Below are positions 8,632 through 33,076 of a DNA stretch of 64,000 nucleotides, piece after piece. Each line of letters opens with the position of its first letter. Position 1 is the first letter of the stretch. The notes beneath the pieces are model-generated. The model did no database searches, was not told the DNA's origin, and saw only the letters and a program-made list of their open reading frames with translations. The position numbers and the translations under genes were made by a program. The stretch is from Candidatus Undinarchaeales archaeon (GTDB lineage: Archaea; SpSt-1190; JASMDC01): NCBI GenBank assembly GCA_030753015.1, contig JASMDC010000007.1:62001-126000 (forward strand). The letters run 5' to 3'.

Positions 8632-9795
8632 ATGAGAAGGGCATACAAGTTCAGGCTGTATCCGAACAGGGAGCAGACTGGCCGTCTGGAGCGGACGCTG
8701 GAAACGTGCCGTATCCTCTACAACGAACTCCTTGCAGAGAGAAAGGTGACTTACGAGGTGACGGGGGGTGGGATTAGTTACTTCGAGCAAAAACGCAATC
8801 TAGTCAAGATGAAGAAGGTGAACGATCATCTGGCACAGGTTAACGCACAGGTGTTGCAGGACGTCACCCGTCGTATCAAGAGATCGTTCGACGCATTCTT
8901 CCGCAGGATCAGGGACGGGAAAAAACCGGGGTATCCGAGGTTCAAAGGGAGGGGGCGGTACAAGTCCTTCACCTACCCCCAGCATGTGAAGAGTTTCAAG
9001 ATCAAGAGCGGGCGGCTTTCCCTCTCGAAGATAGGCGAGGTGCGTATGTTCCAGCATCGTCCCATCGAGGGAGTCATCAAGATGTGCACGCTTAAGCGGG
9101 ACGACATCGGCGACTGGTCAGTCATCATCGTATCAGAGCTGAAGGACACTCCGAAGATAGCCATCGAAGAGACGATCGGCGTTGACGTCGGGCTGAAGAA
9201 CCTGGCTGTCGCTTCTGACGGATTGATCCTCGAGCCTCCCACATGCCTCCGTGGCTCGGAGAAGAAGCTCGCGAAGCTCCAACGGCGGCTGAGCCGGAAG
9301 ACGAAGGGAAGCAAGAACCGAGAGAAGGCACGGGCCAAAGTGGCTAGACACCATCGGAAGATCGCAAGACAGAGACGAGACCATCTGCACAAGGCCTCAC
9401 GCTGCCTTGTCGATTCTGCTGATCGCATTGTCTTTGAGAACCTTAATATCAACGGGATGCTCACAAACCATCATCTTTCCAAGTCGATAGCAGACGCGTC
9501 CTGGGGGACGCTCATCCAGTTTACGATGTGCAAGGCTGAGAGTGCCGGCAAGTCGGTCGAACTGGTACCCCCCAGGAACACGTCACAGCTATGTTCACAA
9601 TGCGGCGCGTTCGTAAGGAAGTCCCTGTCCATGAGGACGCACAGATGTCCCGAGTGCGGGCTCGTGATGGACAGGGATCTGAATGCCGCCATCAATATAC
9701 GGGACAAGTTCACCCTCGGGCAGAGGGGTAGGGCCTGTGGAGCCGTCTCCGTTGGGAGGGGCGATGAAGCAGGAAGCTCACCGAATTATCGGTGA
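8632..9795 (+). CDS. tnpB: TnpB, RNA-guided nuclease of an IS200/IS605 element
   Basis: A full-length TnpB (387 aa). It opens with the usual 'YKFRLYPNREQ' N-terminus and has a basic helical domain. The split RuvC nuclease is intact: D185 in GVDVGLKNL, E269 in FENLNI, and the third Asp in the MDRDLNAAIN motif (D347/D349). A C-x-x-C...C-x-x-C zinc ribbon (CSQCG, CPECG) sits between the last two. TnpB proteins are programmable DNA endonucleases guided by an RNA from the element's right end and help retain the IS. The reading frame closes inside the right-end hairpin, which is typical. No TnpA transposase gene is present in the window. Confidence 0.93.
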   Translation: MRRAYKFRLYPNREQTGRLERTLETCRILYNELLAERKVTYEVTGGGISYFEQKRNLVKMKKVNDHLAQVNAQVLQDVTRRIKRSFDAFFRRIRDGKKPGYPRFKGRGRYKSFTYPQHVKSFKIKSGRLSLSKIGEVRMFQHRPIEGVIKMCTLKRDDIGDWSVIIVSELKDTPKIAIEETIGVDVGLKNLAVASDGLILEPPTCLRGSEKKLAKLQRRLSRKTKGSKNREKARAKVARHHRKIARQRRDHLHKASRCLVDSADRIVFENLNINGMLTNHHLSKSIADASWGTLIQFTMCKAESAGKSVELVPPRNTSQLCSQCGAFVRKSLSMRTHRCPECGLVMDRDLNAAINIRDKFTLGQRGRACGAVSVGRGDEAGSSPNYR

Positions 9796-9807
9796 GAGGA
9801 TGTCACG
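9777..9807 (+). repeat. Right-end hairpin and cleavage-site sequence of the IS element
   Basis: The inverted arms CTCACCG and CGGTGAG surround AATTAT; GGATGTCAC follows. The last bases of the element supply the TCA that is read, on the other strand, as the TGA stop (9803-9805) of the giant surface-protein gene. Confidence 0.75.
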
Positions 9808-12800
9808 TAACGACCCGCAACGAGTAGGTGATGGGGCTGGTGGCCGTCATGTCGAAGGTGATGACACCGCTCTCCTCCTCGCGGTCGGCATTCCAGAGGC
9901 CGTTCTGCCACTCGACGGTCAGGCCATGGACCTCCACATGGGCCCTGTAGCGTCGCGCCGGAGCGATGGCCCGCTTGAGCTCGTCAGGCGTGGTCTCCAG
10001 GGTTGCCTGGCCGTACCCGAGGGACGCGGTCTTCTCACGGGCTTCGATGGTGATGGTGTCCTTGTACCCCAGGGGCGTTGCGAGCACCGCTTCGCCGTTG
10101 TCGAAGGACACGCCGCTCGTAGCGATCGTGGTCCTCGAGCCCAGGTCGAAGGGCAGCCGCTCCACGGACTTCCGACCGATGTTCTGGTAGGTGATCGTCC
10201 AGGTGCGGGTCCGCTTCAGGTCGCGCTTCAGGATGTCCTTGATGGCGACGTCCGTGATGGTGACCGGCCTCGCCCGCAGGGTGGCGGTGATGCCTACCAT
10301 GTCGCTAAAGCACTGGTCGTCGTTGAGCGTCTCCTCACCCTCGCCGTACGCGCAGGTCTCGCTCCACTGGGCCCAGTCAGGGTTCCACTCGTTCTCCCGT
10401 GTACTTGCGGTGGCGAAGCTCGTCCGGTTGAGGGACATGCCGTTGGCCAGGGTGAGCTGGACGTTGTAGGAGCGGAAGAACTCCGGTGTGGAGAAGCCCG
10501 TCTTGATGGTCGTCTCGAGATCGGTTAGCTGGGTCTCGCCCTTCAGCTCGACGTACACGGAACGCTCCTCGCCGATGAACACCGGTGTCTTGAACGACAC
10601 GGTGATGATGGAGCCACCGTTGGGGGCTGAATAGGTGCTCTCGGTGTAGTCCTCACGATTCTGGGGGATGAGGGTCAGCCCGGACTGGTCGATGACAAAG
10701 GACATGGCCTCCACGGGTGTCTCCTGACGGTTGACCATGGACAGGTCCATGGTGTACGTCAGGGCGACGGTCTCGTCCTCGGGCGCGCCCACATTGATGG
10801 AGAGGCTGGGCCTGACGAAGAGCTCACGCTCCGTGATGTCCACATGCGTCATCGCGGTGGCGGGCGCGTCGGGTAGAACGGCCGCGAGCACCAGGCCCGC
10901 GACAAGGCACACCAGTATCATGGCGTTCAGTCCGGCACCGCCGCCGCCCTTGCCGCTGCGGAACATCGACATGGCGAAGAGGGCAGCGATGACGAATGCG
11001 ACGGCCAGCAGTGTCTTGAGCTGGGGTATGCCGTCCGGGCCCGGCGGGACGCCGGACGCCTCGTCGAGCATGCCGTTGATCTCCTGGATGAGCGACTTCG
11101 CCTTGTCGTGGTCGCCGGCCTTCACAGCAGCATCGAGCATCCTGCTCAGGTCCGAGATACGGGAGCGGACCTCGGAATCCTCGATGCTCGCGGCCTCGCT
11201 GTCGATGGTGGCCATGGCGTTCCGGTAGTAGGCCTCCCGGGCAGCGGGGTTCTCGGGGATGTCCACTGTCGGCCGCGGTGTGGCGGCAGCGGTGGGCTTC
11301 GGTGTGGCATCGGTCGTCGGACCGGGCGTGGTCACGGGCCTGGCCGTCGGCTGCGGATCCTCGACGACGACGCCTTCTGCGTAGGGCAGCTCCACAACGT
11401 GCACAGGTTCCGGCTCGGGGGCATCCTGGCCGATGGATAGCACGACCTCGTCAGCGAAGCCCTCGTTCTCGGGCGTGAACTGCGGATAGGCACGTGTTCC
11501 GGCGGCCTGTACACGGCCCTCGGAAGTGGCGGCCAGCTCGTACCACAGGCCCACGTCGCTGGTGTGGTCGAGGAACCATACGATCTTGTCGGCCTTGACT
11601 ATGACCTTGCGCACCGACCCGCCCTCGTCGGCGTACCCGGTCACGGTGAAACCGGGCGGGATTGGCTCCTCCACTACAACGAAGTGCTGGTGGACGCCCG
11701 AGGTGACGGTGATGGATACATTGACGTTGTCCCCGGGATCAGGGACGGTGGTGTCGTAGGTGCGGAGCACGACGATGTCCTCGCCGCGGACCAGCACGAC
11801 ACCCACCGGTTCGGACGACACCATACCATCATCAGTGAACGCGACGGCGGCGTCGAGCTTGTACTTCCCGGGCTCGCCGTAGAGCTCGTAGGTGACCGAG
11901 GTGCTGCCCCGGGCAGCGAGGTCCACGGGCCAGTGCAGCGCGAGGTCGGGATCCTTGTCCTCTGATCCGGCCGCGGTCAGTCCTGCGGGCACGAAGTCGT
12001 AGAGGTCGCCTGTCACGGGATCGTTCCCGGTATTGTGGACCACGAGGGTCACGTGCACCCGGTCCCTGCCGGCGGTGGCGAAGGAGGCGCTCTTGGATAC
12101 GGTGAGCGCCGGGCCCGTACCGGCTGGCTGGGTGTCGGTGAGCACCGGGAGCTCCCAACTCTCGAACTGTTTTCCGCCGACCTTGGTACCGCGGGCCAGG
12201 CCGTACTCGGCCTTGGCCGTCCCCAGCTCCAGCCGGTCGACGGCGCGGTCGGTGACGTAGTAGAGCTCGAAGGTCCGCGGCTCGGGAAGGCTGTCAACGT
12301 AGAGCCGGCGCGTGGGCCGCACCTCGACGCCGTCGGGCACGGGCAGCTCGATGCTGATGCGCGCGGGCACCGCCACGTCGGCGTGGGGGGTGAGGGTCAT
12401 CTTAACAGGGTACACACCCGGTGAGGCGGGCTCGCCCACCTCGAACGCAGCGGTCACGTTTCCGCCCAGAGTGGCCGTGGACCACACGTCGTAGAACAGC
12501 TTACCCTTCCCGCGACGCACGATACGGATGGTGTTCTCGCCATGGCGCAGGTAGTCAGTGAGGCGCAGCTCGCCCGACATGCCCCAGATACCCTCGAGAT
12601 GGACCGAGTCGATCCGCTCGCCGTTCACGTACAGCTCGACGTTCATATCGGGGATGACCGGGGGTTCGATCTCCAGCAGCCGCAGGTGAGCGGCCAGGGA
12701 GGCGATCTGGTCGGCAGTGGTGGTGAACTCCCAGGGATTGCGCTCGCGCAGCCACTTCAGCGCGGCCTTCGCGGTGTCGCGGTAGGCGGGCTGCTCCAGA

Positions 12801-15800
12801 AGCGCCATCGCTGCCTGCGCTGTGGTCTCGTCGGGCCCGCCCAGCGAATACCCGCGGCTCCAAAAGATATAGGGATCGTCCTCCTTGAGCAGGGAGAGCA
12901 GCTTGTTCACAACAGCCCGCTCGTCGCCCTGGGCGTCGCGTGTGTGCGAGAGCAGTCGGGCGTACAGAGCGATTGTGTAGGGATCTGTGATCTCGCCAGC
13001 GATCCACTTCTGGTGCAGGAAGTTCATACCCTCGCCGGGGACGGACTGGCCCGCCTCGGCCAGGGAGATGAGCACATAGGCCGTCATCCCGGCATCGTTG
13101 CCGGTGAGCCACTGGGTGCCATTGTAGGAGCCGTCGCCGTTGGCGTGGTTGGTCAGCCAGTTCACGGCGCCGTAGACCATCGAATCGTCCACGAGCACGT
13201 GGCGCTTGGCAGTGGAGAGCGCCCGGAGGGCGTAGGCGGTCATGTACGTGGTCGAAGGGCCCTTCTTCCACCAGCCCCAGCCGCCGTCGGCGTGGCGCAT
13301 GAACACAAGCTCAAGGGCAAGGCCACGGACCCGCTCCTTGAACCAGCGGTCGCTGGTGATGAGCTTGAGCTTGGCGCGGTACTCGTGGGAGAGTACCGTG
13401 GGGATGATCTTGGATGCGGTGACCTCGGTGGTCGGATAGGAGTACCCGTCCACCCGGGCCGAGCCGGTATAGATGGACAGCGACTCGGAGCCGAACCGGG
13501 CGTACCCGCGCACGGAGATGTCGTAGGCCTCCTTGGGCACGTTGATGGTGAACGTCACCTCCTTCTTGTCGGTGTCACCGGACACGGTCTCCTCCCAGGG
13601 CACACCGTTGGGTCGGACCCAGATGCGGTTCTGGACACCATCGGTGAGCTCGGTCCCGTCGGAAGTGGAGGCAGTGGCGAAGAAGGTGAGGTTCTGGTAG
13701 AAGGGCGTGCGGGCCCGCAGGCGCCAGGAGACGGACTGCGGGATGTCCTTGTGGAGGGTGAATGTGGCGGCGTTGGGAGTGAACAGGTCGAACCACTCCT
13801 CCTCCTTGAGACCGGCGAGCGCGTCGAGGTCGCCATCCAGGTAGCTGTGCACGGTCATCTGCATGGTCGTATTGTCGCCCTGTGTGAGCGAGGCGGGGAA
13901 GTAGGGCTTGATGAAGAACTCCTTTTGCGAGACGAAATCAGTGGCGTTCTCCGCGTACCGCGCGTCCATGGTGGACGCGTACACGGCCGCCTTCCAGGTG
14001 GTGAGCGAGTCGGGGACCATCACGGTGGTGGTGAATGTGCCGTCCTCACCGGTGAGGGCGAACGGCTCCCACAGGAATGTCTCGGGGAACATGGTGCGCA
14101 TCTGCACCGTCGCCAGCACATCCGCGGTCTCGCCGGCGCTCAGGGACATGGCCTTGGACTCCTTTGCCATCATCATGCCCTCGTCCGCCATGTCGGCGCT
14201 GGCGAAGCCCGCCTCCATCTCCATGGCGGGGGCGGCCCTCGGTGCCCCGGGCAGGGCCATACTGCCGCCTGCCAGCGCGCGTCCCTTGTTGCGCTGCATG
14301 TAATCGCCGCGGTCCCAGTTGACGCGGGCGGGATTGGCGCTGCTCGACTCCAGCTTTGTGGGGTCGTTGACGGGTGTACCGTACATCCGTCGCATGTTCA
14401 TGTTGCTCTGGAAGTTGGCGTTCGAGGTGATGGACCAGGAGCGGGAGAGTGGCCGCGACACGACGTCACCGCGCTCGGACGCATCGATGACCGACTGGTC
14501 GACGACCTTCACGCCCACGGCAGCGTTCGGTACGGGCCGGCCCTCCTTGTCGGTGACCGTTACTGTGAGGGTGAGCTCGTCGCGGGGCTCGTACACCTCG
14601 CGGTCGACGCTGATGGTGGTCCTCAGCCCCTTGAGCTTGAGTCGGGCCTGGCCACCTAACGGGTACGTGATCCCGTTGGTGCCGACAGCGAACACGGCCA
14701 GTCCCACTCCACCGAGGTCGTCCTCGGTCGTTGGGATGCTCACCGTGAAGTTACCGCCGTCGCCCACATTGCGAACCACGGTCCGCAGGGGGATATTGCG
14801 CATGTAGTGGCGCTCTATGATGACGGCATCGGGAGCGAATCCCTCGAACTGATGGACGAACCGCGCCTCGTCACCCGGCTCCACCTCTTGGGTGAGGGTC
14901 CACAGCCGTGCGGTACGGATGGTGCCGAGCACTACCGGGCGCTGGACGGTCAGGGTGAGCCCCCGGTCGTACCCTGTCTCCTCGTTGAAGCCGATGGTGG
15001 CCGTGGCGGATATCGCGTAGAGGCCCTCGGGATGATGGGGGACGGGGACGCCGATGGTCTCGGTCCCGTCGGAGGACGTTTGTATATGGATGCCGACCGA
15101 CTGCCCTGCCATGGGGCCGTTGAACGACCAGCGCATGTCATCGTCCTTGACCGGCTCACCGGTGAGGGCGTCGGTGAGCGTGAGCTCGGCAACGACCTTC
15201 TCCCCCTCAAGCCGTGGTGTAAGGGTGAGCTCGTACTTGCCCGAGACGGCCTGGCCGAACGCGCCCCAGGCGCGCCCGTACCGGTCCACGACTCCCAGCT
15301 CGCCCTCAAGGTACATGTACTTCAGGGCGACATCACGGGACACTGTGAAGTCCTGCTCGACCTTCGAACCGGTGGTGGGATCGAGTGTGAGGTCGGTGAT
15401 CTCCTCGGGCTTACCGTCAGGGGGGACGCCCGTGAGATCCATCGTCATTGATCGGAGGTTCGACGCGTCAGTGCCCTTGCTCGTAGCCGTCAGATGGAGC
15501 GTCTCGTTCCCCGGGTAGTAGGTCATGGCGACGCTCACGGTCACCTCGGGAGCGAGCTTGGCGCTCTTGGAGAGGTCCACGGTACGGCCCGCGGGATCGG
15601 TGATATGGGCCTCGACCACGATGTGGGTGCCTTTCAGCTCCTCCAGCGGTACCTCGAAGGAGCCCACGCCGTCGGTGTCGGTGGTGAGGTTGATGCGCTT
15701 GTAGACCTGGAGCTTGACAAGGTCCGGGCCGCCGCCCCGGGGCGACACCATCCCGGGGTAGGCCATCTCCTTGGCCATCATGGGCTCGTAGTAGTCCATC

Positions 15801-17299
15801 TCCCCCCCGTAGTACATGGGCTCGTCGTAGTACACGCGCCCTCCGTAGTAGCCGCTTCCCGGCTCGCGAGCGGCCCACCATACGGTGAGCTCCACGTCGC
15901 TGTTGGAGGCCGGTTTGCCGAAGTAGTAGCGCAGGGAGACATTGCCCTTGACCACGTCGCCATGATCGTAGCCCTCGTTCTCCTTGTCCAGCTCCATCTC
16001 GCTGATCAGCTGCTTCTTCTCGAAGAACTTCACCTCGATCTGCTGTCCTCTGCCCCCGTCCACATTGAACCAGTAGGTCTCCTCGTCGATGTTCATGGGG
16101 AGGGTGACCTGGCCGTCGTAGATGCCGTACTCGTTGCTGGTCAGGGTCTCTTCGAGGATGGTGAACCCCCGGTTGCTGCGGAGCGTGACCTTGATCTTCT
16201 GGGAGACGGGGAGCACGCGCTCGCCCGTCCACTTCCAGGAGTAGCCCCGGAAGAACACTGTCTGGCCCGGATTGTAGATGGGCCGGTCGGTGGCGAAAGC
16301 GATGTCGGTCCAGGACGAGGATGAACAGGATGAGTAGGTGCCCAACTTGTAGCTCCCGTTCCTACCGTCGGGAAGCGTATAGATGATGGTGGTCTGGTCG
16401 GAGGAGACCGAGCCCTTGGGGAAGAGCACGTGTCCGGCCGTGTTGGTCGTGAGCGTGACGCCGTTGACGGTGACAGAGGCGCCCTGGACCGGTTTCATGG
16501 TGGCCGGGTCAAGTAGCACCACAACGAACACATTGCACCGGTCGGGTGTGGGGACGAGCACGATCGCGGGAGCAACGGTGAGGCTCGTGGCCTGGGTGCG
16601 CCTGCCCTCGCCAGGGAATATGTCAGCGACGACGTGATAAGAGCCGGGGGAGAGGTTCACTGACGGTACGTAGGTCCCTTCCTCCACCCAGGTGAACTCC
16701 TCGAACACCTTTTCGGTGTCGGTGTACACGCGCACGATCATCACACCACGGTAGGCGCCGAAACGGTGGACGGCGGTGACCGGGAGCGGTGTGTCGATGC
16801 CGGACGGGAGCACGGACGAGCGGGGAGAGATGATGATGGCCGCATCGTTGGCGTAGGGATGCTGGGATATGTACGCTTCCTTCTCGTACAGACCGCGGTT
16901 GTATCGGCGGCCGACCTGGCGTCGCACATCAAAGGAGACCGCCTTCATATAATCGCCCATCAGGGCCGTCATGGTCCAGCTGCCGAACCACGGGTCCTCG
17001 TAGTTGGGCGGGGTTCCCATGGGTATCTCGTAGGTGTAGGAAGCAGTGGGTCCCGAGGGCGTGATGGTCCGCTTGTCCATCACCTGGCCTCGCGGGTCAG
17101 TGAGCTGGATGATGGTTGACTCACCGGTCACGAGCCCGGAATCATCGAAGTAGGCGAGCTTGACCTCCATGGTCTCGCCAGGCTCATAATAGCGCTGGAC
17201 AACCAGGGGCAGCACCTTGGTGCCGGCGCCCTGGGCCAGAGCGAGCGCGATGATGGCGGTTACGAGCAGTACGATCGATAGTCTTCCTCGAACTCCCAT
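9803..17299 (-). CDS. Giant alpha-2-macroglobulin-like surface protein lacking the thioester
   Basis: A 2,498-residue secreted protein with a signal peptide (about 1-24). MG beta-sandwich domains follow, including the MG2 hallmark 'TDRPIYNPGQTVFFRG' near residue 335. Tyr/Met-rich (about 480-520) and Met-rich (about 1030-1060) stretches could serve as bait regions. The A2M domain ('VPDSLTTWKAAVYA') is near 1100 and an alpha-toroid TED-like domain spans about 1290-1600. DUF11-like domains follow, then a Pro/Thr linker, two membrane helices (about 2097-2145) and a final beta-rich domain. Where thioester proteins have Cys-Val-Glu-Gln, this one reads 'YSYPTTEVTASK', so Cys and Gln are absent. It probably traps or binds proteins non-covalently at the cell surface. 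The ATG at 17299 is 27 bp from the TATA box TATTTAATA; the longer TTG frame is unlikely. The 3' end abuts an IS element, so C-terminal truncation is possible. Confidence 0.85.
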   Translation of the reverse strand: MGVRGRLSIVLLVTAIIALALAQGAGTKVLPLVVQRYYEPGETMEVKLAYFDDSGLVTGESTIIQLTDPRGQVMDKRTITPSGPTASYTYEIPMGTPPNYEDPWFGSWTMTALMGDYMKAVSFDVRRQVGRRYNRGLYEKEAYISQHPYANDAAIIISPRSSVLPSGIDTPLPVTAVHRFGAYRGVMIVRVYTDTEKVFEEFTWVEEGTYVPSVNLSPGSYHVVADIFPGEGRRTQATSLTVAPAIVLVPTPDRCNVFVVVLLDPATMKPVQGASVTVNGVTLTTNTAGHVLFPKGSVSSDQTTIIYTLPDGRNGSYKLGTYSSCSSSSWTDIAFATDRPIYNPGQTVFFRGYSWKWTGERVLPVSQKIKVTLRSNRGFTILEETLTSNEYGIYDGQVTLPMNIDEETYWFNVDGGRGQQIEVKFFEKKQLISEMELDKENEGYDHGDVVKGNVSLRYYFGKPASNSDVELTVWWAAREPGSGYYGGRVYYDEPMYYGGEMDYYEPMMAKEMAYPGMVSPRGGGPDLVKLQVYKRINLTTDTDGVGSFEVPLEELKGTHIVVEAHITDPAGRTVDLSKSAKLAPEVTVSVAMTYYPGNETLHLTATSKGTDASNLRSMTMDLTGVPPDGKPEEITDLTLDPTTGSKVEQDFTVSRDVALKYMYLEGELGVVDRYGRAWGAFGQAVSGKYELTLTPRLEGEKVVAELTLTDALTGEPVKDDDMRWSFNGPMAGQSVGIHIQTSSDGTETIGVPVPHHPEGLYAISATATIGFNEETGYDRGLTLTVQRPVVLGTIRTARLWTLTQEVEPGDEARFVHQFEGFAPDAVIIERHYMRNIPLRTVVRNVGDGGNFTVSIPTTEDDLGGVGLAVFAVGTNGITYPLGGQARLKLKGLRTTISVDREVYEPRDELTLTVTVTDKEGRPVPNAAVGVKVVDQSVIDASERGDVVSRPLSRSWSITSNANFQSNMNMRRMYGTPVNDPTKLESSSANPARVNWDRGDYMQRNKGRALAGGSMALPGAPRAAPAMEMEAGFASADMADEGMMMAKESKAMSLSAGETADVLATVQMRTMFPETFLWEPFALTGEDGTFTTTVMVPDSLTTWKAAVYASTMDARYAENATDFVSQKEFFIKPYFPASLTQGDNTTMQMTVHSYLDGDLDALAGLKEEEWFDLFTPNAATFTLHKDIPQSVSWRLRARTPFYQNLTFFATASTSDGTELTDGVQNRIWVRPNGVPWEETVSGDTDKKEVTFTINVPKEAYDISVRGYARFGSESLSIYTGSARVDGYSYPTTEVTASKIIPTVLSHEYRAKLKLITSDRWFKERVRGLALELVFMRHADGGWGWWKKGPSTTYMTAYALRALSTAKRHVLVDDSMVYGAVNWLTNHANGDGSYNGTQWLTGNDAGMTAYVLISLAEAGQSVPGEGMNFLHQKWIAGEITDPYTIALYARLLSHTRDAQGDERAVVNKLLSLLKEDDPYIFWSRGYSLGGPDETTAQAAMALLEQPAYRDTAKAALKWLRERNPWEFTTTADQIASLAAHLRLLEIEPPVIPDMNVELYVNGERIDSVHLEGIWGMSGELRLTDYLRHGENTIRIVRRGKGKLFYDVWSTATLGGNVTAAFEVGEPASPGVYPVKMTLTPHADVAVPARISIELPVPDGVEVRPTRRLYVDSLPEPRTFELYYVTDRAVDRLELGTAKAEYGLARGTKVGGKQFESWELPVLTDTQPAGTGPALTVSKSASFATAGRDRVHVTLVVHNTGNDPVTGDLYDFVPAGLTAAGSEDKDPDLALHWPVDLAARGSTSVTYELYGEPGKYKLDAAVAFTDDGMVSSEPVGVVLVRGEDIVVLRTYDTTVPDPGDNVNVSITVTSGVHQHFVVVEEPIPPGFTVTGYADEGGSVRKVIVKADKIVWFLDHTSDVGLWYELAATSEGRVQAAGTRAYPQFTPENEGFADEVVLSIGQDAPEPEPVHVVELPYAEGVVVEDPQPTARPVTTPGPTTDATPKPTAAATPRPTVDIPENPAAREAYYRNAMATIDSEAASIEDSEVRSRISDLSRMLDAAVKAGDHDKAKSLIQEINGMLDEASGVPPGPDGIPQLKTLLAVAFVIAALFAMSMFRSGKGGGGAGLNAMILVCLVAGLVLAAVLPDAPATAMTHVDITERELFVRPSLSINVGAPEDETVALTYTMDLSMVNRQETPVEAMSFVIDQSGLTLIPQNREDYTESTYSAPNGGSIITVSFKTPVFIGEERSVYVELKGETQLTDLETTIKTGFSTPEFFRSYNVQLTLANGMSLNRTSFATASTRENEWNPDWAQWSETCAYGEGEETLNDDQCFSDMVGITATLRARPVTITDVAIKDILKRDLKRTRTWTITYQNIGRKSVERLPFDLGSRTTIATSGVSFDNGEAVLATPLGYKDTITIEAREKTASLGYGQATLETTPDELKRAIAPARRYRAHVEVHGLTVEWQNGLWNADREEESGVITFDMTATSPITYSLRVVT

Positions 17300-17318
17300 A
17301 CTCAAGGATGAGTCAAGC

Positions 17319-24082: not shown

Positions 24083-25933
24083 CTATCCCACGATCCGGCT
24101 GAAGTCCTTTTCGATGCGGGTGCGGGTGAGGCCGACGATGGTGGGCCTGCCGTGGGGGCAGTTCCATGGATGCTCGCAGCGCAGGAGCTTGCGTAGCAGG
24201 TCCTCCGCCTGGCCGGGCGTGAGGCGCTCGCCCGCCTTGATGGAACCGCGACAGGCCATGATCTTGAGGATGGCGTCCACCTGCGACTCCCGATGCTTGG
24301 GTTTCCCGAGCCGGAGGATGTCGTCGATGAGCGCACGCACCTGATCGGGACCGGTGGTCCTGCCGAGCACCACGGGCACGCGGCTCACCTGGAAGCTGTT
24401 CTTGCCGAAGGGCTCGATGGCCAGGCCGAGCCCGGCAAGCTCGTCCAGTCGGTCCTGCAGCAGCACCGCCTCCCGCGGTCCCAGCTCGAGCACCTGGGGT
24501 GACACCAGCTCCTGACCTCCAACGTCGCCATCGGCGTGCGACCGGACGAGCTCCTCGTACTTGGTGCGCTCGGCGGCCGCGTGGAGGTCGACCATCAGCA
24601 GCTCGTCCCGTCCCTGAAAGAGCAGGTAGGTATCGAACAGCTCTCCGATGTAGATGAGGCCTGCGAACCGTCCATCGAACCGCTCCTGCTGGGGCAGGTC
24701 CTCCACGGGCGTGTCGGTCCGGCCCGACGGAGCTGTCTCCCGAGGCTTTGCCAACACCGCCTGGACCTGGCCGGGCCGCGTCCCGATATCGGTACCGACC
24801 GGAGCGCTCCTCGCAGCGGGCCTTGCTACTGGACGTGAGATGCCACGGGCCGCCCTGTCAGCGCCTACTGTCCCCGGTAATGGCTCCTGCTGTGTCGAGG
24901 GGGCCAGGGGGATCCCCGCTCCGGCAGCACGGAACACCGGCGCCCGCGCTGCGAGCGCGTCGGCCACGACGGCGGCTACGGCGTCGGACACCCTGGACGG
25001 ATGGACGAACCGCACCTCCCGCTTGGAAGGATGGACGTTCACGTCCACCTCGGCGGGGTCCACCTCGATGAAGAGCACGCCGGGCGGTACGTTCCTGCCC
25101 GGCGGAAGGGTGCCCCTGTATCCCTCGGACAGCGCACGGCGCAGGAGGGGCATGCGCACCGGCCGGCCGTTGACGAAAACGAAGGGGGGACGTGCGGGTG
25201 GTGCGGGGGCATCGGGGGGCACGATGAGGCCGTACGCACGCACCCCGTCCCGCTCATCGTCAACGGTCACCATGTGCCGGGCGACGTCCTTGCCCAGGAC
25301 CGCCATGGCGGCGGCCTCGAGCTCGCCGGACCCCGGCGTGAGCAGGAGGGTATGCCCTCCGTGCTCCAGGCTGAAGGATACGTCGGCGTTGGCCAGGGCG
25401 GCGGCGTTCACCACCTCGGTCACGTGACCCAGCTCGGTCGCCGTTGCGCGAAGGTGCTTTCGCCGGGCGGGCGTGTTGAAGAACAGTTCCCGCACCTCGA
25501 CCTCGGTGCCCGTGGGGGCGGCTGTGGGCTGGACCGATACCGTCCGGCCCCCCTCCACACGTACCTCTGTCGCTCCCGCCAGCGGATCGCGGCAGGTGAC
25601 CAGCCGCACGAGGGCGACCGAGGCGATGGAGGGCAGCGCCTCGCCCCTGAATCCCAGGGTGCCCAGTCCGCGCAGGTCGTCGATGGCGACGAGCTTGGAC
25701 GTAGCGTGGCGTTCGAAGCACAGCTCGGCGTCCTCGGCGGTCATGGCGCGGCCGTCGTCGCGTACGGCCACCAGCTCCTTACCTCCGTCGGAGACGCGCA
25801 CCTCGATCCGGGTCGACCCGGCGTCCAGGGCGTTCTCCACCAGCTCCTTCACCACCGACGCTGGCCGCTCGACCACCTCGCCCGCAGCGATCTGGTTCGC
25901 CACGACGTCAGAGAGCACTTGGATCTCAGTCAT
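24083..25933 (-). CDS. mutL: DNA mismatch repair protein MutL
   Basis: The N-terminal GHKL ATPase is complete: 'NQIAAGEVVERPASVVKELVENALDAG' region, 'DDGRAM', 'RHATSK' and 'GTLGFRGEALPSI'. A Pro/Ala-rich linker follows, then the C-terminal dimerisation domain. The endonuclease site reads 'DLHAAAERTKYE' near residue 447, that is D-L-H-A-x2-E-x4-E with Leu where Gln is usual. The C-terminal 'CPHGRP' metal-site motif is present, so latent nicking activity is likely. It would act with MutS to direct strand removal. The ATG at 25933 overlaps the end of mutS by 8 bp. The N-terminal six residues of the longest frame (start 25948) lie inside mutS and are not needed. Confidence 0.95.
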   Translation of the reverse strand: MTEIQVLSDVVANQIAAGEVVERPASVVKELVENALDAGSTRIEVRVSDGGKELVAVRDDGRAMTAEDAELCFERHATSKLVAIDDLRGLGTLGFRGEALPSIASVALVRLVTCRDPLAGATEVRVEGGRTVSVQPTAAPTGTEVEVRELFFNTPARRKHLRATATELGHVTEVVNAAALANADVSFSLEHGGHTLLLTPGSGELEAAAMAVLGKDVARHMVTVDDERDGVRAYGLIVPPDAPAPPARPPFVFVNGRPVRMPLLRRALSEGYRGTLPPGRNVPPGVLFIEVDPAEVDVNVHPSKREVRFVHPSRVSDAVAAVVADALAARAPVFRAAGAGIPLAPSTQQEPLPGTVGADRAARGISRPVARPAARSAPVGTDIGTRPGQVQAVLAKPRETAPSGRTDTPVEDLPQQERFDGRFAGLIYIGELFDTYLLFQGRDELLMVDLHAAAERTKYEELVRSHADGDVGGQELVSPQVLELGPREAVLLQDRLDELAGLGLAIEPFGKNSFQVSRVPVVLGRTTGPDQVRALIDDILRLGKPKHRESQVDAILKIMACRGSIKAGERLTPGQAEDLLRKLLRCEHPWNCPHGRPTIVGLTRTRIEKDFSRIVG

Positions 25934-28613
25934 CGCCGCCACCACCATGTGCCCGACGCTTGAGCTCCTCGAGCTTGTTAAGCGCCTGGACGGGCGTTAT
26001 CTCGTTGAGGTTGAGGTCGGACAGCTCGTCCAGGACCGTGGCGCCCCCGGTGAACTCAACAAGGGACGCCTGCTTGGGCCTGGGCTCCGGTTCCCCTACC
26101 GGCTCCGGCGGTGCACGGGGCGGGGGTCGCGCCAGCGGTCCGATGGCCAGGGCCTGACTTCCGGGGTGGTCCGGATCCTCCAGCGTTCCCAGCACCTCCC
26201 GGGCGCGGTCCAGCACATCGTCGGGGAACCCGGCCAGCTGGGCCACCTCGATACCGTAGGAGCGGTCCGCCGGTCCGTCGACGACCTTGCGCAGGAACAC
26301 AAGCCGGCCCCCGTCGTCCTTGATGGCGATCGAGAGGTTGCGCAGCCCCGCCAGCTCGTCCTCGAGCACGGTCAGTTGGTGGTAGTGAGTGGCGAACAGG
26401 GTCTTGCACCCCTTCTCCGGGTGGGAGTGGAGGTACTCGGTCACCGCCCACGCGATGGCCAGGCCGTCGAACGTGCTCGTCCCGCGGCCGATCTCGTCCA
26501 AGAGCACCAGGCTGCGCGACGAGGCGTTGTGAAGGATGTTGCTCGTCTCGTTCATCTCCACCATGAAAGTCGATTGGCCCGAGGCGAGGTCGTCGTGGGC
26601 CCCCACGCGCGTGAAGATGCGGTCCACTACGCCGATGACGGCCTCCAGTGCCGGGACGAACGAACCCATCTGGGCCATGAGCACGACGAGCGCCACCTGA
26701 CGAAGGTAGGTGGACTTACCGGCCATGTTGGGGCCGGTGATGAGCAGGAACCGGTTCTCGCCGCAGTCAAGGAGGGTGTCGTTGGGGATGAACCCGCCCC
26801 GACCGATGGTGCGCTCCACCACCGGGTGTCTACCTGCGAGGACGCGGACACGGTCGCCGTCGTTCACCTGCGGTCGCTTGTAGCCGCGGTCGTGGGCGAC
26901 CTGGGCGAGGCATGCAAGCACGTCGATACGGGCCAGCACCTGGGCGGCGTCCTGGATGTCGGCCGCTCGCTCAGCGACCTGTGAGCGTACCCGACAGAAC
27001 AGCTCGTACTCCAGGGCCACGGACCGCTCTTCAGCGGTGAGCACCTTGGCCTCGTACTCCTTGAGCTCTTCCGTGATGAACCGCTCGGCGTTGGCCAGCG
27101 TCTGTTTGCGGATGTAGTTGTCGGGGACGAGCTCGAGGTTCGGACGGGTGACCTCTATGTAATAGCCGAACACCTTGTTGAATCCCACACGCATCGATCT
27201 GATGCCCGTGCGCTTGCGCTCCGTCTCCTGCATGGTGGCGATCCAGTCCTTGCCCGAGCGTGACAGCGACCGCAGTTCGTCCAGGTCGGAGTCGAACCCC
27301 TCGCGGATGATACCCCCGTCCCTCACGGCGTTGGGAGGCGCGTCCACGATAGCGCGTGCGACAAGGTCTGCTATGTCGTCCAGATCGGGCAGTGCCTCTC
27401 CTGCCTCGACGAGGAGGGCGGCGTTCCTTCCGGCCAGCTGCTCCCTGATACTCGGGAGCGTCAGCAGCGAATCGCGCAGCGAGACGAGGTCCCGTGCGTT
27501 GGCGGTGCCGGACACGATGCGGGTGGCCAGACGCTCCAGGTCCGCCACTCCGCGGAACAGGTCGCGCAGGTCGTCGCGGACCAGCTGCTGCTCCACTAGC
27601 TCGCCCACGGCGTCAAGACGACCTCCGATGGTGGCCACGTCGGTGAGCGGCCGCAGGAGCCACCGGCGCAGGAGCCGGCCGCCCATGGGCGTGGTGGTGT
27701 GGTCCAGCACCTCGAGGAGGGTGTTGGTGGTGTCGTTGGTGCGGATGCTGCGTACCAGTTCCAGGTTGCGGGAGGAGACGGCGTCGATGACCAGCACGTC
27801 GTCGGTCGAGTAGGGGTGGAGTGTGCGGATGTGCTCGCCGGTGCCCTTGAACGTCTCGCGGATGTACACCAGCGCAGCACCTGCCGAGGACACGGCCAGG
27901 CGCCTGTCCTCCAGCCCGAACCCGTCGAGGGTGAGCGTGCCGAAGTGATCGCGCACGATATCGTACGCTCGCTCGAACGCGAAGTGAGCGTCAGGGAACT
28001 CCGAGAGGCGCATCACCGACTGCACCCGGACCAGTCGGACGAACGCCTCGTCCTGCCGCAGCCACTCGGGGACCAGCACTTCGGCGGGCCCCAGGCGGAC
28101 GAGCTCGGCGTTGAGCTCTACTGCCGCGTCGTCGCCATCGAACTGGGTGGCCATAAACTCGCCGGTGGAGATGTCGATGACCGCAAGACCGTAGGAACCG
28201 CCACCGGCGGACACGGAGGCCAGGAAGTTGTTCTCCTTCTCGTCGAGGAGGAAGCCCTCCATCAGCGTGCCGGGGGTGTAGACGCGGATAACACCGCGCT
28301 TGACCAGGCCCTTGGCCTTCTTGGGATCCTCCAGCTGCTCGCACACCGCCACCTTGTGCCCGGCCTTGAGCATCCGGCCGATGTAGTTGTCCAGCGCATG
28401 GTGGGGGAACCCGGCGAGCTTGGTCTCCTGTGGAGAGCCGCGGTTGCGGGAGGTGAGCACGATGTCGAGCGCCTTGCTGGTCTTGACGGCGTCCTCGCCG
28501 AAGGTCTCGAAGAAGTCACCCATCCGGAAGAAGAGCACGGCGTCAGGGTACTGCCGCTTCATTTCCCGGTACTGCCGGGTCATGGGCGTCTCCTTCTGCT
28601 TCGGTTTAGCCAG
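25926..28613 (-). CDS. mutS: DNA mismatch recognition protein MutS, probably starting at CTG
   Basis: A full MutS1. The mismatch-binding F-x-E motif is in 'RMGDFFETF'. The connector, lever (with 'TMGGRLLRRWLLRPL' type helix) and clamp domains follow, then the Walker A 'TGPNMAGKSTYLRQ', 'DEIGRGTSTFDG' Walker B and 'FATHYH'. The C-terminus has a short linker and a helix for dimerisation. The first ATG (28583) would cut off the conserved opening: in frame upstream the codons read A-K-P-K-Q-K-E-T-P just before the Met. A CTG at 28611-28613 sits a few bases after a strong purine-rich ribosome-binding site (28616-28630), so I place the start there. A TATA-like CATAAAAG is at about 28650-28657. It forms an operon with mutL. 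Confidence 0.93.
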   Translation of the reverse strand: MAKPKQKETPMTRQYREMKRQYPDAVLFFRMGDFFETFGEDAVKTSKALDIVLTSRNRGSPQETKLAGFPHHALDNYIGRMLKAGHKVAVCEQLEDPKKAKGLVKRGVIRVYTPGTLMEGFLLDEKENNFLASVSAGGGSYGLAVIDISTGEFMATQFDGDDAAVELNAELVRLGPAEVLVPEWLRQDEAFVRLVRVQSVMRLSEFPDAHFAFERAYDIVRDHFGTLTLDGFGLEDRRLAVSSAGAALVYIRETFKGTGEHIRTLHPYSTDDVLVIDAVSSRNLELVRSIRTNDTTNTLLEVLDHTTTPMGGRLLRRWLLRPLTDVATIGGRLDAVGELVEQQLVRDDLRDLFRGVADLERLATRIVSGTANARDLVSLRDSLLTLPSIREQLAGRNAALLVEAGEALPDLDDIADLVARAIVDAPPNAVRDGGIIREGFDSDLDELRSLSRSGKDWIATMQETERKRTGIRSMRVGFNKVFGYYIEVTRPNLELVPDNYIRKQTLANAERFITEELKEYEAKVLTAEERSVALEYELFCRVRSQVAERAADIQDAAQVLARIDVLACLAQVAHDRGYKRPQVNDGDRVRVLAGRHPVVERTIGRGGFIPNDTLLDCGENRFLLITGPNMAGKSTYLRQVALVVLMAQMGSFVPALEAVIGVVDRIFTRVGAHDDLASGQSTFMVEMNETSNILHNASSRSLVLLDEIGRGTSTFDGLAIAWAVTEYLHSHPEKGCKTLFATHYHQLTVLEDELAGLRNLSIAIKDDGGRLVFLRKVVDGPADRSYGIEVAQLAGFPDDVLDRAREVLGTLEDPDHPGSQALAIGPLARPPPRAPPEPVGEPEPRPKQASLVEFTGGATVLDELSDLNLNEITPVQALNKLEELKRRAHGGGGDD

Positions 28614-28630: not shown

Positions 28631-28673
28631 TCAGGAAGGAAGGTAGACTTTTATGTGCTGTGGATGGGGGCGG

Positions 28674-30647
28674 TCAGGCAGCGGCGGAGAGGTCGCAGCC
28701 CTCTGGCGGCACCACCCACAGCTCGGCGGTCATGGCATCGTAGTCGACACGGGTGTCGTTCCGGGCGATGAAGGTCACCCCGCCGATCTCCTTGCGAACC
28801 TCCATGGTGCCATTGGCGACCGACTCGTAGTCCACGCGGAAGAGGTGGGCGATGCCGTCGTTCGTCGTCGCCCGGAAGAAGGGGCAGCAGGGGTGGAAGG
28901 GCTCCGAGTCCCAGAGAAGGGTGAGGTTGCAGATGTTGAGTTTGGAGTCGAATGGGACAGCGATCTTTATAGCAGAGTCGGGTAGTGGTGAAGTGATGTT
29001 CTGTGGAATGTCGCAATCAGGTGGGATGATGATACGAAATCTATTTCTTTCTCCAGTGGATGCCGTGAAGTTGTCTGTGAAGACCCCTATTTCACCGACC
29101 TTTCTACCCGAGAAAAGCCAAGAGGGCACGTATGGATATATTCTTTCTTCATACGGCTGCGCTTGAGCCAATCGTTTATCAGGATGGAATATGTGAATGT
29201 AATCACTCATTGAAGCAGGTCCTCGGCTGATGAAATAATCGCACACATCGATTCCTTTGTCTTCATCGAGCATAAGTTCACTTATGTATGTTCCTGTCAT
29301 CCTCCTGTCTAGGTCTTTTGATACTATGAAGAAGCACAAGTCTTTCTGCAGCCTGTCAGAGAGTTCGCTGCATCTCGTTCTGATATCGCGGATTTTCTGT
29401 GGGCCGGAGGAGGTATTCAGAAATTGAATAAGTTTATCGTTGATAAGGTCCAGACAATAATCCTGTTTTGTGAACTTCTTATCACAAAAAAGAACATCCT
29501 CTTTTTCTAGGGCAAACTCGATATAGCAGGATTCCCGTTTTGAATTATCAGAAAAGTGGATACAGAACTCATGCCCGTCAATCTTTGAAATAAATTCTAT
29601 ACAATCATCAAATGATTTATTAGGCCTGATATACGAGGCCCTTGAGCAGTGCTCATATCCTGGAATAGAGCTGATGGCCTTCGTATAACACTCATGTTTT
29701 CTGATCAAGTCTACAACGGACTTACAGTTAGTGTAATCGTAGGTATTAATAGAATTCTTAATTATGCAAGAGTCCCTGTAACTGTCCATCCCATATAAAT
29801 CATGGACATATTCCAATGATTGGATATTGAGACAGATCGAAGGATCATCGAAAAAATGTTCATTAGAGATCGAAAAAATGCATTTATTACGAACATATAT
29901 ATCATTAATATCCATACAGTCATTCCAATCAAGTCTTCTTGTCACATAGAAGAAAAGGCACCAGTCTCGAATGCCTGAATCAGCTATTTCATTGCATGTT
30001 TGCAGCACTGTGAATCCTTCGTTTGCAGCCAAGGAGAACGTTCTTTGATCATCACTATACTCAATCCAATTCTTACGTTTTTCAATGGAAGCTCGACTAT
30101 CCATTAAATAAATATCAATTAATGCATGATAACAGAGCCGTCTAGCAAAGACATCTTGGGCAGAACGGCAGAGAGATGGATCGGGCCTGTTACGGAGGGC
30201 ACAGAAAATGCAGGGGTATCCTCTGTGAAGGTCCCATTTATTCCTGATACCCAATCGGCATTGATCGATATCCCTTGTCTTCATGATGCGCATCCATGTT
30301 TCATCGTCATGTGGCCGCATCTGTTTTAATTCAATACATGGCCAAAAGTTAGTGTTGTTTTCCCGTTTCTCAAGAGCTTCACGACAATAATTACTCAGTT
30401 CTTTGAGACAACCCATTTGTGCACCCTTGAGTGACATGTCTCCAGTTGTGGTCTTATTATTATGACGATCGGTGGTATCATTCTGAATAATAGTGATTGT
30501 CTCATTCTCTACTGTGTTGTTCCCTTTCGATTCATTTTGATCTGGCGTGGTACAATTCAAGAAGAGAAACAGAAGTAATAGAACAGATAATCTTTTTACT
30601 TTTGAATTACTGCTGCTATTTCCTACAGACACTTTTTGAGTTACCAT
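28674..30647 (-). CDS. Low-GC secreted lipoprotein with Cys-pair repeats
   Basis: A 657-residue protein with an N-terminal hydrophobic helix ending in 'FLFLNC', a plausible lipobox. A Ser/Asn/Thr-rich spacer follows, then at least six loose repeats in which 'C..I' and 'rd.C' Cys pairs recur about every 35-40 residues (examples: 'DSGIRDWCLFF', 'MDSYRDSCIIK', 'NSKRESCYIE'). The last ~80 residues are beta-rich with another Cys cluster. The repeats look like helical hairpins stitched by disulphides, on the outer side of the membrane. Base composition is strikingly AT-rich from about 28,930 to 30,647 but GC-rich, like the genome, in the final ~230 bp of the gene. This suggests acquisition and fusion. 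Function unknown. Confidence 0.7.
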   Translation of the reverse strand: MVTQKVSVGNSSSNSKVKRLSVLLLLFLFLNCTTPDQNESKGNNTVENETITIIQNDTTDRHNNKTTTGDMSLKGAQMGCLKELSNYCREALEKRENNTNFWPCIELKQMRPHDDETWMRIMKTRDIDQCRLGIRNKWDLHRGYPCIFCALRNRPDPSLCRSAQDVFARRLCYHALIDIYLMDSRASIEKRKNWIEYSDDQRTFSLAANEGFTVLQTCNEIADSGIRDWCLFFYVTRRLDWNDCMDINDIYVRNKCIFSISNEHFFDDPSICLNIQSLEYVHDLYGMDSYRDSCIIKNSINTYDYTNCKSVVDLIRKHECYTKAISSIPGYEHCSRASYIRPNKSFDDCIEFISKIDGHEFCIHFSDNSKRESCYIEFALEKEDVLFCDKKFTKQDYCLDLINDKLIQFLNTSSGPQKIRDIRTRCSELSDRLQKDLCFFIVSKDLDRRMTGTYISELMLDEDKGIDVCDYFISRGPASMSDYIHIFHPDKRLAQAQPYEERIYPYVPSWLFSGRKVGEIGVFTDNFTASTGERNRFRIIIPPDCDIPQNITSPLPDSAIKIAVPFDSKLNICNLTLLWDSEPFHPCCPFFRATTNDGIAHLFRVDYESVANGTMEVRKEIGGVTFIARNDTRVDYDAMTAELWVVPPEGCDLSAAA

Positions 30648-30685
30648 TTTCCTCTATGATTATTCTATTGGAGCTTGAACGTAAT

Positions 30686-32186
30686 CTATGTTACGGAAAT
30701 CGTCTCGTTATCCATCGCCGCCTTCCTCCCTGCATCGTCCAGCAGCAGGTGCAGGTCGAGGTTGTACCCGCTGACCTGCGTGCAGTTAGGCAACTCGACG
30801 AAGAACTCGAACGTACCGTTGTCCACCTCGGTGAGCTTGTCCTCCACTGTGCAGTTCCACGATTCGTTGGTCTCGTTGTTGGTGACGCATGTGCGATCGC
30901 CATAGAGCCACTTGTTGCAGGTTTCGTTGTCGTCGTCGCGCCGCAGTAGGAGCCGGACGAAGGTGGAGCTTGTAGCATTTGTGAGCGTGCCGTTTACGGT
31001 GTAGTTGAAGGGCACTGTGACGTTCATGGTGGAGTTGGGGATAGTGCTGTCGGTGATGTTCAGTTCCGCCGTGGTGTTCAGAGCGTCCGTCACGTTGAAT
31101 TGGACATCGGTCTGGTAGCTGGTCGAGCTGTAGCTGGCGTTCACCCTGAGGAGGTAGGTCTTCGACTCGTTCATCGGTGTTGTGAAGTTCTCCTCGTCGC
31201 GGAAGAACCGGTCGTCGAAGTAGTGTAGGTCGTAGCCAGCAGTGGTGTTGTACCTCGTACCCGTAGTCGTGAAGTTGTAGTTTATGGAGCAGTCGGTGCC
31301 GTTCGAGTTGTTGCACTCGTAGACGCGCACATGGTCGACAGTGGTCTGGTTCCAGTAGATGTAGCCTCCCTGACTGTCCGCGAAGTAGAACGACCATGCC
31401 AGAGTGTCGTTGGCATCGGCAGAGTAGAGACCCCCCGAGATCGGATAGACGTGGCTGAATGTGTCATTGACACCGTACCCGAAGTGATCGATGTAGATGC
31501 CGGGCTTGAGGACCAGCGTCATGCTGAAGGTGTTCGTGGCGAGTTCAGTCACGTCCAGGAGCAGCTGGATCGTCACGTTGTACGTTCCTGTAGAGAAGTC
31601 TGTGGTGTCCCACTCGATGGATGAGTTGTAGGTCTGGTTCGCGTGTACGGTGACGTCAGTGGCGTTCAGGACGGTGCTGTTGTCATCCCCCGTGATGGTG
31701 ACGTTGTGGACCAGGTTGGCGTAGGAGAAGTAGCCGTTCAGGCTCATCGTCGTGACGTTTATCACCGCATTGTGGTTCGCGTACTGCGGCGGATCGTATG
31801 TGGCCGACACGTTGAGCTGTGTGAGGGACATGCGACGCTCGAATCCGAGCTCCGAGGTCCCGTTCGCGGTCAGGTTCACCCATATAGTCCCGGAGCCATA
31901 GGATGTCGCGGTGACGTTCCACGTCTGATTATAGGACGTGGTTGTCGGATCCAATGTGAAATTCAGGTCCGTTGCGTCCGTCGTGTTCAGGTCGTCGGAA
32001 AGCGTGAGGTTGCCGAGGAATGTGAGAGTCGTGTTCGCGGTGTTGTTGATGAAGAACGTCACGTTGAACGGATCGTTGACAACTCCTAAGGAGGGTGCCG
32101 TCAGGTTCACATCCACCGGGATGATGCTGAGCTGTACACTCTCTTTCAGCGTCGGATCGTTCTCCGAGTATGCCGTGATGTCGATC
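30686..32186 (-). pseudogene. Decayed N-glycosylation-rich surface protein, 5' end missing and frameshifted
   Basis: The open part (30686-32116, 476 codons from a GTG) encodes a Thr/Asn-rich string of beta-sandwich domains with dozens of N-x-S/T sites, as in archaeal S-layer or adhesin proteins. It has no signal peptide and no proper start. Just upstream the protein-like continuation lies in another frame: 'DITAYSE' up to 32161 joins 'NDPTLKESVQLS' only if one A is removed from a run of three A near 32161-32163. A TAG stands right before that remnant (32187-32189). So the gene has lost its N-terminal part and carries a +1 frameshift. It also lacks any C-terminal membrane anchor. Confidence 0.65.
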
Positions 32187-32287: not shown

Positions 32288-33076
32288 TTGAAACAAAATA
32301 TTTCGCTTGGATCGAAGGAGGTCGAGCTCCTCTCGACACTGGAGCGTGAGCGACGGGACGTCTTCACTGTCGACGACGCGCGGTCGGTCCTCGCGGACAC
32401 CTCGCACCAGGTTGTCAGGAACCTGCTGTCGGGGCTCGCTGCCAAGGGCCGCGTCCAGAGGATCAAGCGGGGTGTCTACCTGCTCGTTCCCTTCAGGCAT
32501 CGTGACTGGGCCGTGCACGAGCTCTCGCTCGTACCGGTCCTCGCCCGTGACGCGTACGTCTCGTTCGGTTCAGCGCTGCGCTTCTGGGGGATGACCGCCC
32601 GCATCGGCACTGTCGTCACCGCGGCCGTCAGGAGACCTGTCCGGGAACGCGCGTTCCAGGGGACCTGGTACCGGTTCGTGGCACTGGCGGACAGGTTCTT
32701 CTTCGGGCACCGTGCCGTCATGCTCTCGGGAAGGTCCGTACGAGTGGCGACGAGGGAGAAGGCCGTGCTCGACTCACTGCTCCACCCCGAGCACTGCGGG
32801 GGCATCGGCGAGGTAGCACGTGTGGTGAGGGACCATGCAGGTGAGCTGGACTGGGCGCGGGTGGGGCGACACCTGCACAGGATGGACAGCAGCGCCGTAG
32901 AGAGGCGGCTCGCGTACATCCTCCACCACCTCGGACTGGGAGAGTTACTACCCGGAGTAGTCAAGAAAGGATATGATGGATACCGTCCACTCGATCCCCG
33001 GGGCCCGGCCGAAGGGCCGTACGACGGGAAGTTCGGTCTTCGGATCAACGTCGGGCTGGACGAGGTCATGTCATGA
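32288..33076 (+). CDS. AbiEi-type antitoxin/transcriptional regulator
   Basis: The N-terminal ~80 residues are a winged-helix domain ('VFTVDDARSVL...HQVVRNLLSGLAAKGRVQRIKRGVYLL'), typical of AbiEi-like antitoxins. The remainder resembles the AbiEi C-terminal domain, with 'YVSFGSALRFWGM' and 'ATREKAVLDSLLHPEHCGG'. In type IV AbiE systems this protein counters the nucleotidyltransferase toxin and represses the operon. The start is TTG at 32288; it is about 27 bp from the TATA-like CTTATATAC (32255-32263), as expected for a leaderless message. The stop overlaps the next start by 4 bp. Confidence 0.8.
   Translation: MKQNISLGSKEVELLSTLERERRDVFTVDDARSVLADTSHQVVRNLLSGLAAKGRVQRIKRGVYLLVPFRHRDWAVHELSLVPVLARDAYVSFGSALRFWGMTARIGTVVTAAVRRPVRERAFQGTWYRFVALADRFFFGHRAVMLSGRSVRVATREKAVLDSLLHPEHCGGIGEVARVVRDHAGELDWARVGRHLHRMDSSAVERRLAYILHHLGLGELLPGVVKKGYDGYRPLDPRGPAEGPYDGKFGLRINVGLDEVMS

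Follow-up and report, generated by a model that had tools for sequence, protein, structure and literature searches.

A large open reading frame in the archaeal DNA window analyzed here (a stretch of 64,000 nucleotides) encodes an alpha-2-macroglobulin (A2M) whose sequence indicates that the thioester is gone and that covalent capture via the classical route is impossible. Alpha-2-macroglobulin is a blood protease trap, and the thioester provides its covalent bond to proteases. Losing covalent trapping does not mean losing trapping, and we favor, at about even chances, the interpretation that the protein is a membrane-anchored archaeal A2M in which the thioester was lost secondarily and which would act as a noncovalent protease trap resembling Type II A2Ms. 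Archaeal A2Ms with an intact CxEQ motif are already known; an archaeal A2M without the thioester appears to be new.

Domain layout and predicted fold

The A2M gene (9803-17305, minus strand) encodes 2,500 residues when counted from a TTG at 17305, and an ATG at 17299 is the more likely start codon. Its features are as follows:

17231-17299, minus strand: signal peptide-like N-terminus, residues 3-25 (hydropathy and sequence inspection)
16025-16297, minus strand: MG2, residues 337-427 (PF01835, E 4e-20)
14486-14893, minus strand: A2M bait-region domain (MG5/MG6), residues 805-940 (PF07703, E 2e-9)
14111-14473, minus strand: putative bait-region segment, residues ~945-1065 (AlphaFold disorder; position as in A2M)
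13826-14080, minus strand: MG7 (A2M family domain), residues 1076-1160 (PF00207, E 1e-15; AlphaFold)
12668-13483, minus strand: TED alpha-toroid of about 12 helices, residues ~1275-1546 (PF07678, E 3e-19; AlphaFold; PDB matches)
13412-13444, minus strand: degenerate thioester site YSYPTTEVTAS, residues 1288-1298 (alignments and codons)
12386-12649, minus strand: beta-domain C-terminal to the TED, residues ~1553-1640 (AlphaFold; PDB alignments reach the model end)
11468-11779, minus strand: DUF11/bMG10-like domain, residues 1843-1946 (PF01345, 25.5 bits; PF17973, 24.7 bits)
11036-11353, minus strand: Pro/Thr-rich stalk and helical segment, residues ~1985-2090 (sequence)
10952-11032, minus strand: membrane helix 1, residues 2092-2118, followed by a basic/Gly loop (hydropathy)
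10850-10948, minus strand: membrane helix 2, residues 2120-2152 (hydropathy)
9806-10849, minus strand: C-terminal domain of ~350 residues beyond the hairpin, residues 2153-2500 (no clear homolog)

MG domains, MG7 (PF00207), and the TED (PF07678, with its match spanning residues 1294-1503) follow one another in the order of the A2M superfamily, all above the Pfam cut-offs, and phmmer searches of the PDB returned TEP1, A2ML1, A2M, CD109, and C3/C4/C5. By both profile and predicted fold, the protein is thus a genuine A2M. The PF01345 (DUF11) match passed its cut-off of 24.6 bits and PF17973 just missed its own of 26.2 bits; because the DUF11 match is overlapped by this subthreshold bMG10 match, it may be an ordinary MG10-like domain.

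An AlphaFold model of residues 1060-1645, built with 29 relatives, reached a mean pLDDT of 84 and contains MG7, a helical TED toroid, and then a beta-domain, in keeping with the A2M fold expected in the original prediction. The best PDB matches of this model (Z 33-37, with alignments covering 525-557 residues; a Foldseek search was also run) were native A2M (7von, Z 36.6 over 557 residues), TEP1 (35.5), and A2ML1 (34.8), with C5 among them at a Z of ~34. The TED fold is thus predicted to have outlasted the loss of the thioester, in a model that leans on relatives because the other alignment rows have intact thioesters. The TED core HADGGWGWWK..MTAY is strongly retained, which speaks for selection that maintains the fold. 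The N-terminal ring (residues 332-1085) was modeled poorly, with a mean pLDDT of 50 that was too low for a fold search. Within it, the bait position (~941-1085) had pLDDT values mostly of 24-35 and is predicted to be disordered. A bait region is therefore predicted between MG6 (VVDQSV) and MG7 (RTMFPETFLW), assigned from position and disorder only, as a segment of ~120 residues rich in Met/Ala/Gly.

The thioester site and its relatives

At residues 1288-1298, Y-S-Y-P-T-T-E-V-T-A-S replaces the consensus Y-P-Y-G-C-x-E-Q-T-x-S. The original prediction placed a lost motif at 13390-13460, with Thr for Cys and Val for Gln, and the degenerate site lies inside that range with Thr1292 and Val1295 at these positions. 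Three independent alignments (phmmer to TEP1/A2ML1 and two MAFFT alignments, one with four archaeal A2Ms and one with 29 relatives) concur on this placement, ruling out misalignment. Changes from the consensus are L1285V, P1289S, G1291P, C1292T, and Q1295V. The flanking residues had also been described as retained, which holds for Tyr1290, Glu1294, Thr1296, and Ser1298 but not for the loop Gly, now Pro1291; the reported Pro-rich helix start comes down to a single conserved residue, Pro1302. The codons over the site read GGG TAC TCC TAT CCG ACC ACC GAG GTC ACC GCA TCC AAG, with CCG for Pro1291, ACC for Thr1292, and GTC for Val1295. Gly to Pro and Cys to Thr each require two base changes and Gln to Val (GTC) requires three; since at least seven changes would be needed within a 2,500-codon open frame, a sequencing error is ruled out.

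The only cysteines of the 2,500-residue protein are at 257, 327, 2133, 2318, and 2332. We found no CxEQ, the hallmark of Type I (thioester-containing) A2Ms, anywhere in the protein, and residues 328-2132 are free of Cys, so a displaced thioester is impossible in the A2M core and the loss stands. Across the 29 relatives, 59 columns are at least 90% conserved, and the protein keeps 41 of them and has lost 18. The thioester loop keeps 5 of its 10 conserved columns, with exactly the Gly, Cys, and Gln among those lost, and beyond the loop the protein matches 36 of 48 near-invariant columns.

No functional element of this ancient immune-type family is more conserved than the thioester, with 136 of 138 prokaryotic sequences keeping it when the present protein is counted among the 138. 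The intact set, in which a few sequences may represent one species reached twice, comprises two paralogs from the source genome (contig C11, CGEQ; contig C20, CFEQ), all 16 genuine archaeal TEDs from a TED-profile search of 394 genomes, all of the best 80 relatives from an 85,000-species collection (retrieved by peptide patterns that excluded the thioester motif), all 15 further Thermoplasmatota loci, and 23 further loci in the phylum of G314 (found with a thioester-blind MG7 profile). These counts bear out the view that a thioester-less form is unusual among archaea, rule out a loss general to archaeal A2Ms, and mark the loss as rare and derived. The accessible part of an archaeal survey describes 27 A2M proteins of varied architectures with intact CxEQ and makes no mention of a thioester-less form (PMC8416519); compared with what is given there, the present protein is likewise archaeal and TED-bearing and differs in lacking CxEQ. 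Our search of the open-access literature on archaeal or thioester-less A2Ms also found no thioester-less archaeal A2M.

The only exception in the phylum of G314 is L174 (G787:C155), whose motif reads Y-P-Y-L-T-V-E-K. This 1,626-residue ORF (L178:6261-11141) has no detectable signal peptide or membrane helix and for this reason is perhaps intracellular, and its genome also encodes an intact, secreted, anchored A2M (L158; L179:2163-8021). Further candidates for thioester-less forms were discarded: the broken frame of L135 reads GCGEQ, and the weak PF07678 matches L029-L038 in Thermococcales-like genomes were judged, by reading rather than by a profile test, to be other repeat or toroid proteins.

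Long Thermoplasmatota A2Ms carrying CTEQ/CNEQ come closest to the protein, at a best identity of 27-29%, and were nearest in every tree without Escherichia coli sequences (SH-aLRT 94; 88/68). On its long branch of 1.7-2.0 changes per site, the protein has no firmly supported exact position, and resolution is lost once E. coli sequences join. A single loss shared with L174 was rejected by an AU topology test (P = 0.005), and because of this rejection the two look like independent losses. As for kinship with Type II A2Ms, the protein is nearest to the CTEQ archaeal A2Ms, yet a clade with E. coli YfaS was not rejected (AU P = 0.19, with very long branches); the YfaS motif, PWGGVINTGS, has been lost differently, and the similarity to YfaS is far weaker. 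Nine other genomes of the source's phylum contain no A2M. These genomes measure 0.6-1.1 Mb versus 3.85 Mb for the source metagenome-assembled genome; with estimated contamination at 5%, a large-genome lineage and partial mixing are both possible.

Some archaeal A2Ms with intact CxEQ also have membrane helices between MG6 and MG7, where the bait region would lie (L008, L110, L125, L128, L130, L131, L132, L134, L136, L138, and L139). There are six to eight in the C20 copy of the source genome (L008:8236-13374), about five in a Woesearchaeota copy (L110), and two in many Thermoplasmatota CGEQ copies. The accessible part of the survey makes no mention of such helices (PMC8416519), and they are possibly more novel than the thioester loss. 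Three Thermoplasmatota genomes (G395, G401, and G413; L123/L125, L126/L138, and L129/L139) each encode two A2M types: one is long and has C[TN]EQ, and the other is shorter, has CGEQ, and contains a pair of membrane helices in mid-protein. In the source genome, the C20 A2M gene is followed downstream, after one small gene, by a gene for a 2,032-residue, cysteine-rich repetitive protein with no Pfam match (L008:1592-7690, minus strand).

C-terminal anchor and gene neighborhood

The combination of a DUF11-like domain and a membrane anchor had been regarded as an oddity, a view that does not survive comparison with the nearest intact relatives: L073 (2,541 residues) and L041 (2,389 residues) have the same MG2-A2M-TED-bMG10/DUF11-like order and a C-terminal membrane helix, so these parts are ordinary within the lineage. 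More broadly, the protein resembles Thermoplasmatota L073, L041, L043, L126, L127, and L129 in domain order, length (2,400-2,540 residues), and C-terminal helix, and these differ in having a thioester (CTEQ/CNEQ), one C-terminal helix, a longer N-terminus, and no distal 350-residue domain. Of the two-helix anchor described as unusual, only the second helix is particular to the present protein, and by sequence comparison this helix, completing a hairpin, and the distal domain of ~350 residues are its only peculiarities. For residues 2153-2500, 297 archaeal genomes yielded weak partial matches only, none of them a convincing relative. By the positive-inside rule, we infer that the basic/Gly loop is cytoplasmic and the last domain outside. 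An anchor module in common with a neighbor of the C11 A2M was ruled out, as the similarity consists of low-complexity Pro/Thr sequence.

An IS605-type TnpB (OrfB) gene (8632-9795, plus strand) is convergent with the A2M gene and ends 7 bp from its stop codon; the C-terminus of the A2M may owe its shape to the TnpB insertion. Upstream and divergent lies an octopine dehydrogenase-like gene, and neither neighbor points to a function for the A2M. With these two genes as neighbors, no mag/yfa-type operon partners adjoin the A2M gene, no linked signaling gene was found beside it, and PHROGs, Rfam, and tRNA searches returned no match. Elsewhere in the window, MutL and MutS genes adjoin each other (24083-28583, minus strand), and an AbiEi-like antitoxin gene (32288-33076, plus strand) adjoins two large ORFs of 657 and 476 residues without Pfam matches (28651-32116, minus strand) in a low-GC stretch (51% versus ~62%).

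Possible modes of action

Because the bait-position segment and the TED core are retained, a noncovalent tethered trap is our best reading of the protein. A protease would cut the disordered bait segment, and the MG/TED body would then shift shape and sterically hold or shield the protease, with the C-terminal helices keeping the trap on the cell surface; the two thioester-bearing paralogs could handle the covalent job. Thioester-less A2Ms do exist in bacteria, as originally stated: Pseudomonas MagD, a Type II A2M without CxEQ, holds a protease noncovalently after bait cleavage (PMC5764988) and gives protection from some T6SS effectors (PMC12663445). Like MagD of P. aeruginosa and YfaS of E. 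coli, the present protein has an A2M body without CxEQ, here with a putative bait; unlike them, it has no YfaP/Q/T/A or mag-type neighbors and is anchored by its own C-terminal helices. The absence of mag-operon-like partners and the poor model of the N-terminal ring count against a trap, and the long branch also fits relaxed constraint.

That same branch would also fit a protein that had abandoned trapping for a structural or adhesive role at the surface or a scaffold, in which the TED would be used for binding, as it is in thioester-less C5. Such a change of role is unlikely on balance, although the long multidomain ectodomain, the stalk, the hairpin anchor, and the C-terminal domain without clear homologs would suit it, as would the high rank of C5 in the structural comparison. 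With C5 and other animal members that lack the thioester, the protein shares a TED toroid without a thioester and high structural similarity; C5, a plasma protein of animals, carries anaphylatoxin and C345C domains and is not a membrane-anchored bait protein. Against the structural or adhesive role, the segment at the bait position, predicted to be disordered, still measures ~120 residues, and relatives with the same anchor retain the thioester.

The hairpin, unique to this copy, and the intact copies in the same genome, a situation also seen beside L174, would be consistent with a sensor or regulator that signals bait cleavage via the membrane hairpin or, as a decoy partner of the two thioester paralogs, modulates them. 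We consider this improbable given that no signaling gene is linked and that the cytoplasmic loop joining the helices is just a few residues long. Most improbable is a decaying, nonfunctional paralog drifting since thioester loss, for although the branch is long, the 18 lost columns are scattered, and the TnpB gene abuts the stop codon, 2,500 codons are open and the TED aromatic/Gly core and fold are kept.

Returning to the noncovalent trap, we tentatively propose, while rating it below an even chance, that archaea may repeatedly have evolved thioester-less noncovalent A2Ms alongside intact covalent A2Ms (once here and once, by a separate event, in G787), much as bacteria have Type I and Type II forms, and that the present protein would be a self-anchored surface trap needing no separate membrane partner like MagB. 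With the predicted fold and putative bait kept, the thioester dropped, and two intact copies alongside, the protein provides a natural experiment on whether A2M function depends on covalent attachment and whether noncovalent trapping has more than one origin.
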